Assembly (NCBI GenBank): GCA_025927415.1
Contig: JAICLK010000004.1
Span: 1 to 43,467, forward strand
Origin: Candidatus Saccharimonadota bacterium
Lineage (GTDB): Bacteria; Patescibacteriota; Saccharimonadia; Saccharimonadales; UBA4665
Direction of reading: 5' to 3'
DNA: 43,467 nt
The notes beneath the pieces were generated by a model that had not been told where the DNA came from, ran no database searches, and saw only the letters and a list, made by a program, of their open reading frames with translations. Shown piece after piece: positions 39,933 through 43,467 of the stretch. Within the stretch, counting starts at the first letter, position 1. Each line of letters starts with the position of its first letter. The position numbers and the translations under genes were made by a program.

Positions 39933-39965
39933 TTGCTCTTCTTGTTTAAAAATGGTAAAATATAT

Positions 39966-40074
39966 GTACTTTGTGAGGTGAAAATCTCCAAAGCACCTTA
40001 AAAGCAGATTTTGAAACAGGTATGGAATGAACAGCAAGATTACGAATTGTCGTAGTTTTACTGTTCATTCCATA
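39966..40074 (+). ncRNA. Riboswitch-like structured 5' element, copy A
   Basis: GTACTTTG/CAAAGCAC helix enclosing GAGGT-GAAA-ATCTC hairpin, AAGCAGA linker, then 14-bp TATGGAATGAACAG/CTGTTCATTCCATA hairpin; TAAAAT box just upstream. Confidence 0.6.
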
Positions 40075-40247
40075 ACGGGAGGATCACGCAGCCAGCGTGA
40101 AGTGATAGACCTAACTGCACTATGCATCAGTTTGCCAGCCATTCCGTGAGCGGACAGTTGCTGATAATAGGCAATTCTGCCCTCGCACAGTGGCTATATT
40201 AAGCTGCAGCCTGCAGTTAGGGTAAGGTACGAAATGAGGTGAAGTAG

Positions 40248-40505
40248 ATGCTTTTGATAATGGCAATACTTGGCGCCGTTGGTGGTGCCTTCGGAAGCCA
40301 TGTCGGCTTTGGTAGCCCATGGCTGTCAATTCCCACCATCCTGCTGGCGCTCGGCGGCAGCATCGCTGTCCCACTAGTTGCGAGCTGGGCATGCCATCAC
40401 TGGAGCTCATTCCAGCGGCGCTACAGGGCCTATTGGCGCACCTACCGTCGCCAGATCCGCAGGGAGGGACGCGAATCCAGGAGGCTGGCGCGCTCGGCCA
40501 GGTGA
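40248..40505 (+). CDS. Small membrane protein with highly basic C-terminal tail
   Basis: Hydrophobic N-half, then RRYRAYWRTYRRQIRREGRESRRLARSAR; GAGGTGAAGTAG SD-like region before ATG. Confidence 0.5.
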   Translation: MLLIMAILGAVGGAFGSHVGFGSPWLSIPTILLALGGSIAVPLVASWACHHWSSFQRRYRAYWRTYRRQIRREGRESRRLARSAR

Positions 40506-40722
40506 CCGTGGCTGAAGCTACGCTAGAAAGTTGCGTGCGGCGCGGAGGTTGGCAGCACTGCTGTCCGCATCCGCGCCTGCTACGCGTTCGTGCCCTACCC
40601 AATTTCCTTTCCCCCTCCTTCCTCTCGCACTCGTTTCAAAATCTGCTCTTTTTTATGAACTTGGTGTATCGTGCAACGTCGTTTGGCATCGTCGACGAAG
40701 AGCGAATTTTATGATAAAGTAA

Positions 40723-40868
40723 GTGCACTTCGTTGAGGTGGAAACTTCCGAGGTACATTGACAAGCAGACAGTTTTGCAAAGTAGGAACCAGGGCTATAA
40801 AAGTAGCCTTGCTTCCTGCTTTGCAGGAAAAGAGAATACGCAATCCAATCTCTCTAAAGGGAGAAAAG
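40723..40868 (+). ncRNA. Riboswitch-like structured 5' element, copy B
   Basis: GCACTTCG/CGAGGTAC helix enclosing GAGGT-GGAA-ACTTC hairpin, AAGCAGA linker, then AGTAGGAACCAGGGCT/AGCCTTGCTTCCTGCT hairpin; TATGAT box just upstream. Confidence 0.6.
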
Positions 40869-40869
40869 A

Positions 40870-41133
40870 ATGAGTAAGCGCGACAATGGTCAGCGTGCAC
40901 GAACCGAGCAGGGATACCAGCGCGAGTTGGAGGGTCTCCGGCGTAGTGGTCAGAGTGACTTGTGCGCCTATGTCCGTCCTCCGGGCGCGATTCCCGATAT
41001 ACCACCACCAGAGTACCTGGAGCGCCAAGCGACCAGCCAGACCAGCATGAAGGAAGCCATACCGAAGGCTGAGCGCTGCAAGGACTGTGGCTACCTACTC
41101 ACCGCATCCGGACACGAGGTCAGTTGTGGCTGA
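40870..41133 (+). CDS. Small protein with C-terminal Cys motif (CKDCGYLLTASGHEVSCG)
   Basis: ATG preceded by GGGAGAAAAGA; next gene overlaps its stop. Confidence 0.55.
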   Translation: MSKRDNGQRARTEQGYQRELEGLRRSGQSDLCAYVRPPGAIPDIPPPEYLERQATSQTSMKEAIPKAERCKDCGYLLTASGHEVSCG

Positions 41134-41479
41134 TGAGGATGAAGTGAGTGTTACGCTCACGGAAAGGGCATCTGCCAAGGTGGCGGAGTTGCTGGCAGAA
41201 GAGAGCGAGCGCTACCCTGGGCGGAACCTGAGGCTGCGTATTGCTGTCCAACCTGGCGGCTGCTCCGGCCTGCGGTATAATCTCCATTTCGACGAGCGTT
41301 CGCTCGACGGTGACACTGCCACCGACTGCGACGGCGTCGAGGTGGTAGTGGACAAAATGTCCGCTCCGTACCTCGAAGGTGCGACCATCGACTTCGTCGA
41401 CACACTCGAGAAGATGGGCTTCACCATCGACAACCCAAATGCCGGCGGCACCTGCGCCTGCGGCGACTCGTTCCATTAG
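41126..41479 (+). CDS. A-type iron-sulfur carrier (IscA/ErpA/HesB-like), GTG start
   Basis: VTLTERASAKVAELL...LRIAVQPGGCSGLRYNLHFDE...VDFVDTLEKMGFTIDNPNAGGTCACGDSF with the three expected Cys (GGCSG, CAC). Confidence 0.85.
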   Translation: MADEDEVSVTLTERASAKVAELLAEESERYPGRNLRLRIAVQPGGCSGLRYNLHFDERSLDGDTATDCDGVEVVVDKMSAPYLEGATIDFVDTLEKMGFTIDNPNAGGTCACGDSFH

Positions 41480-41496: not shown

Positions 41497-41859
41497 ATGA
41501 CCTTCTCCAGAGTATTCAAACGCATTCTATGCGTTCTTCTCGCTCCGGTGATCATCGCCGTCGGCGCGGTCATCACGGCCATCACCATACCAATCGCCAT
41601 ACTCGTGTTCGTTGTGTGGCGTCCGGGAGACCCATGGCCTGGCGACATCCTCGCCTTGGGGCCTTCGCTCGTCGGTGCTGCCTTCCTCGGTCTGTGGGGA
41701 AATGTGCCTGCGATCTTCAAGTCGTGCGAGCATCCAAATCGGGTGAATGACGACGGCATGTGGTACGACCCAGAGGACGGTTACGCATACCGCTGGAGCT
41801 GCCCCGACTGCAAGAAGGAGTGGTTCGAGAACATCGGTCACTTCGATATTCCTCTCTAG
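41497..41859 (+). CDS. Membrane protein with C-terminal CxxC segment
   Basis: Two hydrophobic segments, then CEHPN...WSCPDCKKEW; GAAGGAGACAG upstream. Confidence 0.55.
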   Translation: MTFSRVFKRILCVLLAPVIIAVGAVITAITIPIAILVFVVWRPGDPWPGDILALGPSLVGAAFLGLWGNVPAIFKSCEHPNRVNDDGMWYDPEDGYAYRWSCPDCKKEWFENIGHFDIPL

Positions 41860-41920: not shown

Positions 41921-42003
41921 CTTTCAATCGTCTGCTGTCAATGTTTTGCTTTCTATGAGTGTGTGCTCATGCTGACGAGCTCAAAAGAGCGAAAAGGCGT
42001 AAA

Positions 42004-43467
42004 ATGAAAAACGTGAATGCAAAGTTAGAGAAAAAATTGCGTGAGTTACCCAAAGATCCCGGTGTGTATTTCCATAAAAACGTCGCCGGGCAGATTATTT
42101 ATGTGGGCAAAGCAGCGCACCTGAACACCAGAGTGCGGCAATATTTTCAGAAATCGCGCATGCGAGACCCGAAAACCGACGCGTTGGTGAGCGAGATTGC
42201 GGATACCGATTGGATGGTGGTGGACAGCGAAATCGAAGCACTGTTTCTGGAAGCAGAAATGGTCCGCCGCTACATGCCGCAGTACAACATTATGCTGCGC
42301 GACGACAAGGCGATGAGCTACATCCGCATCGACTACAACAGCGATTTCCCGACCGTCGGCACCACGCGCCGCCCGCTGGATGATGGCGCTAAGTATTTTG
42401 GCCCCTACCCAAGCACTACAAGCGTTCGCGCGGCACTCAAAAGTTTGCGCCGCGTGTTTCCCTTTGCTAGCCGAAAAATTCCTGGGCAAAAACGCGCCAC
42501 GCTTTTTTATCACATCGGACTTGATCCTGGTTTGGAGGAGGGCAAAACCAGCTTGGAAGAATATCGTGCCAACTTGCGCAAGCTCATGGCCGTGATTGAA
42601 GGCAAGCGTCGCAGCGTGGAAAAGGACCTGGAAAAAGAAATGCAGATAGCCGCAAAAAAGTCGGAGTTTGAACGAGCTGCGAAAATTCGCAATCAACTTT
42701 TTGCGCTGCAAAACCTCACGCGCCAAGTCATTTTCAGCGACAAAGAATTTTTGGACATCAGCAAAGACCATGCCCTAAACGAGCTGGTCGACTTGCTGCA
42801 ACTCGGCAAATTTCCGCGCAGAATCGAAGGCTATGACATCTCGCATATGCAAGGCACCAACGTGGTGGCGAGCATGGTTGTGTTCACGAATGGTGTGAGC
42901 GACAAGCGTGAATATCGTAAGTTCAAAACCAAAAAAGAGCACAACAACGATTTTTATAATATGCATGAAACCCTAAAGCGGCGCTTAAGTGAGAAGAATA
43001 TCAAGGCGTGGGGTAAGTCAAACTTGGTGCTGATTGATGGTGGCAAAGGCCAGCTAGATGCCGCAATCAAAGCGCGTGACGAAATGGGCTGCAGACAAAT
43101 TCCGTTCATCGGTCTGGCCAAACGGGAAGAGCAAATTGTCATTCAAAAAGAAAAATCTAACGTTACTTTACATTTGGAAGTATTGAACAAACTCGGAGGT
43201 TTCACAACGGAAAGTGACGATTTTATCCTCGTCAATGTGCCGCATAGCACGAACCTCATCAAACTTTTGCAGCGTATCCGTGACGAGTCGCATCGCTTTG
43301 CCGTCACCTATCACAGCACGCTCAAAACCAAAGGACAAACTGCCAGCATGCTGGAAGAGTTGCCCGGTATTGGCCCGGCTACACGCAAAAAACTTATCAA
43401 AACTTTTGGTAGTTTGCGGGCAGTTGGCGAAGTGCCGGCTGCAGAAGTTGAAAAAGCTATTGGCTCA
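42004..43467 (+). CDS. uvrC: Excinuclease ABC subunit UvrC (3' truncated by window end)
   Basis: LPKDPGVYFHKN, IIYVGKAAHLNTRVRQYF, RIEGYDISHMQGTNVVASMVVF, LVLIDGGKGQL, LEELPGIGPATRKKLIKTFGS; open to last base. Confidence 0.96.
   Translation, partial: MKNVNAKLEKKLRELPKDPGVYFHKNVAGQIIYVGKAAHLNTRVRQYFQKSRMRDPKTDALVSEIADTDWMVVDSEIEALFLEAEMVRRYMPQYNIMLRDDKAMSYIRIDYNSDFPTVGTTRRPLDDGAKYFGPYPSTTSVRAALKSLRRVFPFASRKIPGQKRATLFYHIGLDPGLEEGKTSLEEYRANLRKLMAVIEGKRRSVEKDLEKEMQIAAKKSEFERAAKIRNQLFALQNLTRQVIFSDKEFLDISKDHALNELVDLLQLGKFPRRIEGYDISHMQGTNVVASMVVFTNGVSDKREYRKFKTKKEHNNDFYNMHETLKRRLSEKNIKAWGKSNLVLIDGGKGQLDAAIKARDEMGCRQIPFIGLAKREEQIVIQKEKSNVTLHLEVLNKLGGFTTESDDFILVNVPHSTNLIKLLQRIRDESHRFAVTYHSTLKTKGQTASMLEELPGIGPATRKKLIKTFGSLRAVGEVPAAEVEKAIGS

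Follow-up and report, generated by a model that had tools for sequence, protein, structure and literature searches.

Predicted end pairing and hammerhead ribozymes in repeated modular mRNA units of Saccharibacteria

Two similar structured elements head two transcription units in the 43,467-nt stretch of Candidatus Saccharimonadota DNA analysed here (contig JAICLK010000004.1; hereafter the window), which raises the question of what such a duplicated leader does. The initial annotation, made from the letters alone, had described a riboswitch-like 5′ RNA element with compensatory changes, and most of its structural description holds: both copies are present and fold as described, with GNRA loops (GAAA in copy A, GGAA in copy B). 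Copy A begins at 39966 as annotated; copy B starts at 40725 and not at 40723. The two-part stem was likewise recovered, with outer arms at 39966–39973/39989–39996 and an inner arm with its GAAA loop at 39975–39988 in copy A, and outer arms at 40725–40732/40749–40756 and an inner arm with its GGAA loop at 40735–40748 in copy B; the description of the outer stem requires the correction that it contains one mismatch in each window copy. A long hairpin with a lower stem of 14–16 bp follows both copies, as had been noted (folding z-scores of −6.6 and −7.1). A comparison of the window with Rfam matched no family at threshold, and hence no copy of the element, in agreement with the remark that no known riboswitch consensus is recognisable; sub-threshold matches to Plastid-psbA, mir-142 and c-di-GMP were set aside as chance.

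Judged by comparative sequence analysis, the element is the 5′-end module of a repeated modular mRNA unit in Saccharibacteria, termed here a cassette. The predicted order of parts shown by these units is a promoter, a stem at +1, a 5′ arm, a long hairpin, the genes, a covarying 3′ arm and a putative 3′-end-forming module, which is most often a type III hammerhead and sometimes an intrinsic terminator or another hairpin. The two window cassettes comprise the following features:

39933..39961, + strand: cassette A promoter, with a −35-like TTGCTC (39933–39938), a −10 box TAAAAT (39956–39961) and a predicted +1 at about 39967
39966..39996, + strand: cassette A 5′-terminal hairpin (copy A), from sequence, folding and family covariation
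40000..40017, + strand: cassette A closing helix, 5′ arm AAAAGCAGATTTTGAAAC, 18 nt, 94% complementary to 40633–40650
40021..40074, + strand: cassette A long hairpin, 25-nt arms, 88% complementary
40248..40505, + strand: cassette A ORF, 85 aa, no Pfam or PHROG match
40633..40650, + strand: cassette A closing helix, 3′ arm GTTTCAAAATCTGCTCTT, with no recognisable hammerhead after it
40725..40756, + strand: cassette B 5′-terminal hairpin (copy B), from sequence, folding and family covariation
40755..40770, + strand: cassette B 5′ arm ACATTGACAAGCAGAC, from sequence and ensemble pairing with the 3′ end
40773..40829, + strand: cassette B long hairpin, with a 16-bp lower stem, a C-C mismatch and an upper stem
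40870..41133, + strand: cassette B ORF1, 87 aa, no Pfam or PHROG match
41087..41479, + strand: cassette B ORF2, Fe-S protein of the IscA/ErpA type (PF01521), probably starting at GTG 41144, with actinobacterial proteins as its nearest relatives on plasmids
41497..41859, + strand: cassette B ORF3, 120 aa, no Pfam or PHROG match
41930..41944, + strand: cassette B 3′ arm GTCTGCTGTCAATGT, pairs with 40755–40770 with one bulged A
41946..42001, + strand: cassette B putative type III hammerhead (27.1 bits with RF00008, 64.9 bits with the family model), followed by the uvrC ATG at 42004

DNA searches (BLAST) of the source genome (665 kb in 51 contigs) returned further copies, so copies A and B are part of a family; together with covariance models, these searches found approximately 10 copies in this genome. 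A first covariance model, built from five copies, gave 42 matches in 14 of 60 related genomes. The covariance-model search for more copies ahead of genes, which had been suggested as a check, proved productive: with a second model of 35 sequences, the 5′ element was detected in 55 of 396 genomes from the same order, and single genomes held as many as 13 copies. In total, 109 copies were collected for the family analyses. A phylum-wide draw of 389 genomes contained three matching genomes, all from the same order as the window, and thus also provides a check of specificity. Among named genomes, a pattern search picked out four records of Candidatus Saccharibacteria, together with two short contigs assigned to Spirochaetia. 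The latter (L129 and L133, JARKOY01 contigs with the Spirochaetia label) are probably mis-binned Saccharibacteria; the first 140 nt of their leaders are identical and their homologous genes have diverged, which is probably a sign of leader homogenisation.

The compensatory change claimed for the stem from two copies is borne out by an alignment of 35 sequences, where 95.9% of cells are paired, 8 of 11 pairs show two-sided changes and none of 500 shuffles reached as good a covariation score. Doubly changed cells number 50 against 16.7 in shuffles, and sliding the partners abolishes the signal. The loop of the inner hairpin varies in sequence and length across the family. Regions upstream of the 109 copies share a strong promoter consensus, TTGACA-17-TATGnTAaaAT, and the element begins 6–7 nt after the consensus −10 box in 81 of them, so the start 5–8 nt after a −10-like box is a family-wide property. 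From this fixed spacing, the first base pair of the hairpin is predicted to lie at or beside +1, and the presence of a consensus promoter at a fixed distance agrees with the annotated view that the element would form the 5′ end of both mRNAs.

The AAGCAGA...TTTTG tract fared differently: taken initially as a conserved single strand, it is predicted to pair with a downstream 3′ arm instead. In cassette A it forms the 5′ half of an 18-nt inverted repeat, 94% complementary, whose other half lies after the ORF at 40633–40650, and most copies have a complementary 3′ arm 0.3–1.3 kb downstream, where the transcription unit they head comes to its 3′ end. Across 43 distinct arm pairs, 506 of 559 cells are paired, a figure in which a few rows, window B among these, are misregistered and scored as broken. 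Doubly changed yet paired cells number 58, compared with a mean of 13.8 and a maximum of 25 in 1000 row shuffles, and this count understates the signal, since the register of the 3′ arm was set by likeness to the consensus and not by pairing, a rule that leaves out diverged, well-paired arms (e.g., L043, with a perfect 17 bp). The row shuffle replaced a plain non-cognate control, which is uninformative because the consensus is common to all arms. In ensemble folding, 30 of 41 units close end to end, and a local 3′ hairpin with at least eight expected pairs, which competes with closure, occurs in 16 of the 41. Cassette A closes also in its minimum-energy fold, and in the ensemble of cassette B the region of the 5′ arm forms 15.5 expected pairs with the 3′ end.

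In 42 of the 109 copies, the 3′ arm is directly followed by a type III hammerhead motif, with the CUGANGA and GAAA core, an NUH site and stems I–III, stem III being open. In the alignment of these 42 sequences, the core elements are invariant or nearly so, a few sequences having C for U4, and covariation extends to each of the three stems (94% paired; doubly changed cells number 204 versus 60 in shuffles). The window hammerhead at 41946–42001 scores 64.9 bits with the family model and 27.1 bits with RF00008, and the others reach 28–44 bits with the latter; all of them thus fall below its gathering score of 48.5 bits and are missed by annotation. Searched for alone, the hammerhead is found in 98 of the 396 genomes of the order: 41 of the 55 with the 5′ element versus 57 of the 341 without it (odds ratio 14.6, P = 2e-17). 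Some hammerheads lacking a called 5′ element have a weak one upstream; for others in related genomes, none was detectable upstream on inspection. A search with filters off found no hammerhead after the 3′ arm of cassette A. In the window hammerhead, cleavage is predicted after C41953. This motif abuts the uvrC start codon (ATG 42004), and the 3′ strand of its stem III overlaps the likely uvrC ribosome-binding site, so that cleavage might have an effect on the uvrC message as well.

The 3′ arm usually persists in copies that lack a hammerhead. An intrinsic terminator lies within ~115 nt in 9 of 24 such copies; with a hammerhead the count is 2 of 42, and among shuffled spans it is 12 of 120. Since the arm is kept where the hammerhead is not, the constant feature of the cassettes is the pairing of the two ends rather than the ribozyme. 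A second cassette type, with the arm TTAACAAGYTCTCTGTT (L073, L077, L078, L103, L105, L107, L108, L116, L123 and L127), has the 3′ arm AACAGAGRRCT followed by a conserved long hairpin and CAGTTCCCCAA. This 3′ module matched nothing in Rfam, known ribozymes included, and shows by eye only a long hairpin; it may be another 3′-end module or an undescribed ribozyme.

In 26 of the 42 hammerhead cassettes, the 3′ UTR contains a sequence close to that of the 5′ arm, to which a stretch complementary to hammerhead stem III is joined. Pairing of this third strand with the 3′ arm and stem III exceeds the shuffle maximum in 26 of 42 cassettes, and the strand may hold back cleavage, trap the end that results, or act as a switch; the copies of the window genome lack it. 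Some cassettes also match RAGATH-10 (RF03147) at 36.6–38.9 bits, the best being L133, below the gathering score of 41.2; in that fold the Shine-Dalgarno region is base-paired to the long hairpin's 3′ arm, and the window copies gave no match to RAGATH-10.

Each cassette carries one to three small genes. These are mostly ORFans (105 proteins in 91 clusters, from automatic calls in which a few frames are clearly wrong), and few Pfam or PHROG matches were obtained among the proteins scanned. Homologous cassette gene pairs differ most at third positions, as for real genes. Their GC3 exceeds that of neighbouring genes in 90 of 104 cases (median +0.19) and that of the ribosomal-protein operon in 9 of 9 genomes. 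Cassette coding sequences are also more folded than other genes, with a minimum free energy per nucleotide of −0.366 versus −0.304 and a z-score against synonymous shuffles of −0.76 versus −0.18 (P = 0.019), and both GC3 and folding could reflect gene origin and not selection for stability. Relatives found in plasmid and phage searches can point to Actinobacteria, in two cases that do not amount to a trend: the ErpA-like protein of cassette B, the only PF01521 protein among 100 relatives searched, is 62–65% identical to proteins on actinobacterial plasmids or replicons, and for an SPFH protein from another cassette 328 relatives were found in phages, every one of which infects Actinobacteria. 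Three further cassette proteins had no match in phages and two had none in plasmids. Cassettes compared with viral contigs and phage records gave no match, and their sole plasmid matches were to erpA.

What could such a unit be for? The architecture itself, end pairing plus a hammerhead, we hold with high confidence from covariation. We also consider it probable, with considerably more reserve, that the whole forms an end-sealed mRNA with a stability function, a reading in which we infer cleavage, closure in the cell and the effect on stability. The hammerhead would cleave the nascent RNA just after the 3′ arm; the two arms would pair and draw the mRNA into a loop with both ends buried beside the +1 stem; and the 5′ stem, the closing helix and the ribozyme- or terminator-made 3′ end would together seal the message against 5′- and 3′-end-dependent RNases, yielding long-lived, highly folded messages. 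In many cassettes the third strand is a competing partner for both the 3′ arm and the strand of the hammerhead, so closure might work as a switch or trap the 3′ end left by cleavage. In favour of sealing we count the covariation of arms and hammerhead, their co-occurrence across genomes, the fixed promoter distance, closure in the ensemble, the retention of the 3′ arm and the terminators where the hammerhead is missing, and the more folded coding sequences. Against it stand hammerheads below the Rfam cut-off, cassette A without a hammerhead, some hammerheads without a detectable 5′ element, the competing local 3′ hairpin, and GC3 and folding possibly due to gene origin. An extension of sealing, in which cassettes would be messages built to persist beyond the life of the cell or for translation inside the Actinobacteria on which the epibiont lives, draws on the end sealing, the folding, the high-GC codon usage and the host- or host-phage-type genes; we regard it as improbable.

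Among other explanations, a translational switch is unlikely, if still worth serious consideration: the 5′ arm, the 3′-UTR competitor and the long-hairpin/Shine-Dalgarno alternative of the RAGATH-10 fold would exchange partners, and the closing helix would mainly control translation or ribozyme timing, not stability. The third strand, above the shuffle maximum in 26 of 42 cassettes and with energies near balance in several, fits this, as does the RAGATH-10 pairing with the Shine-Dalgarno region (36.6–38.9 bits). However, the copies of the window genome have neither, and the closing helix is conserved even without them. A doubtful proposal is that the RNA structures serve the spread of a mobile promoter-leader-gene-3′-end unit, integron-like or RNA-mediated as in retrozymes. 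One leader heading unrelated genes, tandem copies, cassettes lying between conserved genes and after tRNAs with no full-length match in congeners, copy number differing within an otherwise matching array, and ORFs of actinobacterial or actinophage type would all suit such a unit, but no integrase, RT or common boundary sequence was identified, viral contigs and phages had no matches, plasmid matches were confined to erpA, and a unit copied through RNA would lose its upstream promoter.

The ligand-binding riboswitch from which the locus was first approached now appears very improbable. A structured, conserved 5′ leader with covariation is what such a switch would show, yet the inner hairpin loop is variable in sequence and length, the conserved tract is accounted for by pairing with the 3′ end of the unit, the unit ends in a putative ribozyme or terminator, and the downstream genes share no pathway; unrelated as they are (91 clusters for 105 proteins), they point to no common metabolite. 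The chance that a viroid-like or satellite circular RNA replicon was integrated as DNA is close to negligible: a type III hammerhead in a highly folded RNA of 0.6–1.3 kb recalls one, but there is one hammerhead per cassette, at its 3′ end, the unit has its own bacterial promoter, Shine-Dalgarno sequence and gene, and viral contigs contain no match.

Several known systems invite comparison with the cassettes. In Staphylococcus icaR mRNA, the 3′ UTR pairs with the 5′ UTR and masks the Shine-Dalgarno sequence of a single gene; the cassettes resemble it in their 5′–3′ UTR pairing within an mRNA, but they are a gene-independent, repeated architecture with a putatively self-made 3′ end and arms far upstream of the Shine-Dalgarno sequence. 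Integron gene cassettes are defined by a promoterless gene, an attC site and the IntI integrase; each cassette here has its own promoter. The hammerheads share the CUGANGA...GAAA core, the NUH cleavage site and the three stems with type III members of RF00008, and differ in being fixed right after a 3′ arm paired with a conserved 5′-terminal element. In some cassettes the RAGATH-10 match runs from the 3′ half of the long hairpin through the next hairpin to the Shine-Dalgarno region, leaving the +1 hairpin, both arms and the ribozyme outside RF03147. Retrozymes, which are non-coding, carry a hammerhead in each of their flanking repeats (PMC6155905); the cassettes likewise place a hammerhead within a repeated genomic unit of 0.6–1.3 kb, but are protein-coding, with a bacterial promoter and one hammerhead at the 3′ end.

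Bacterial hammerheads have been described as often lying close together and flanking small non-conserved ORFs, their role being an open question (PMC6155905), and the reason for their gene associations is stated as unknown (PMC10085705). Given these accounts, some cassettes may have been seen earlier from their 3′ end. Our literature search found no paper joining hammerhead ribozymes with Saccharibacteria or Patescibacteria and none mentioning RAGATH-10; in the literature searched, there appears to be no description of the 5′ element, of the closing helix or of the modular plan, and the combination is without precedent, its parts (hammerhead, leader hairpins) being of known kinds. Bacterial hammerheads were recognised over a decade ago and have since had no role assigned to them, and their fixed place in a conserved mRNA plan makes a role in producing a 5′-pairing 3′ end directly testable. 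If true, the sealing model would describe a protein-free, gene-independent closing of bacterial mRNAs and would point to a pool of unusual genes in Saccharibacteria.

Several observations concern the placement and fine structure of cassettes. They often lie just downstream of tRNA genes (L077, L091, L115, L089 and L090), and in G174 and G176 the tRNA and the upstream gene are conserved and the cassette is not matched. Two tandem cassettes in G252 (L070) correspond to one in its congener G327 (contig 2), whose leader is like that of the first G252 cassette and whose gene and hammerhead are like those of the second, which suggests gain or loss through recombination between leaders. L014 and L023, from two families of the order, have a cassette at the same site (rpsP - KH protein - cassette - trmD) with unrelated genes. 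Three cassettes of the source genome carry a hairpin CACGC-AGCCA-GCGTG 3′ of the long hairpin (window 40085–40099; L012; L044, a CAGCTAG variant), and in two of the three the AGCCA loop can pair with a downstream TGGCT (window ~40198–40203) as a pseudoknot.
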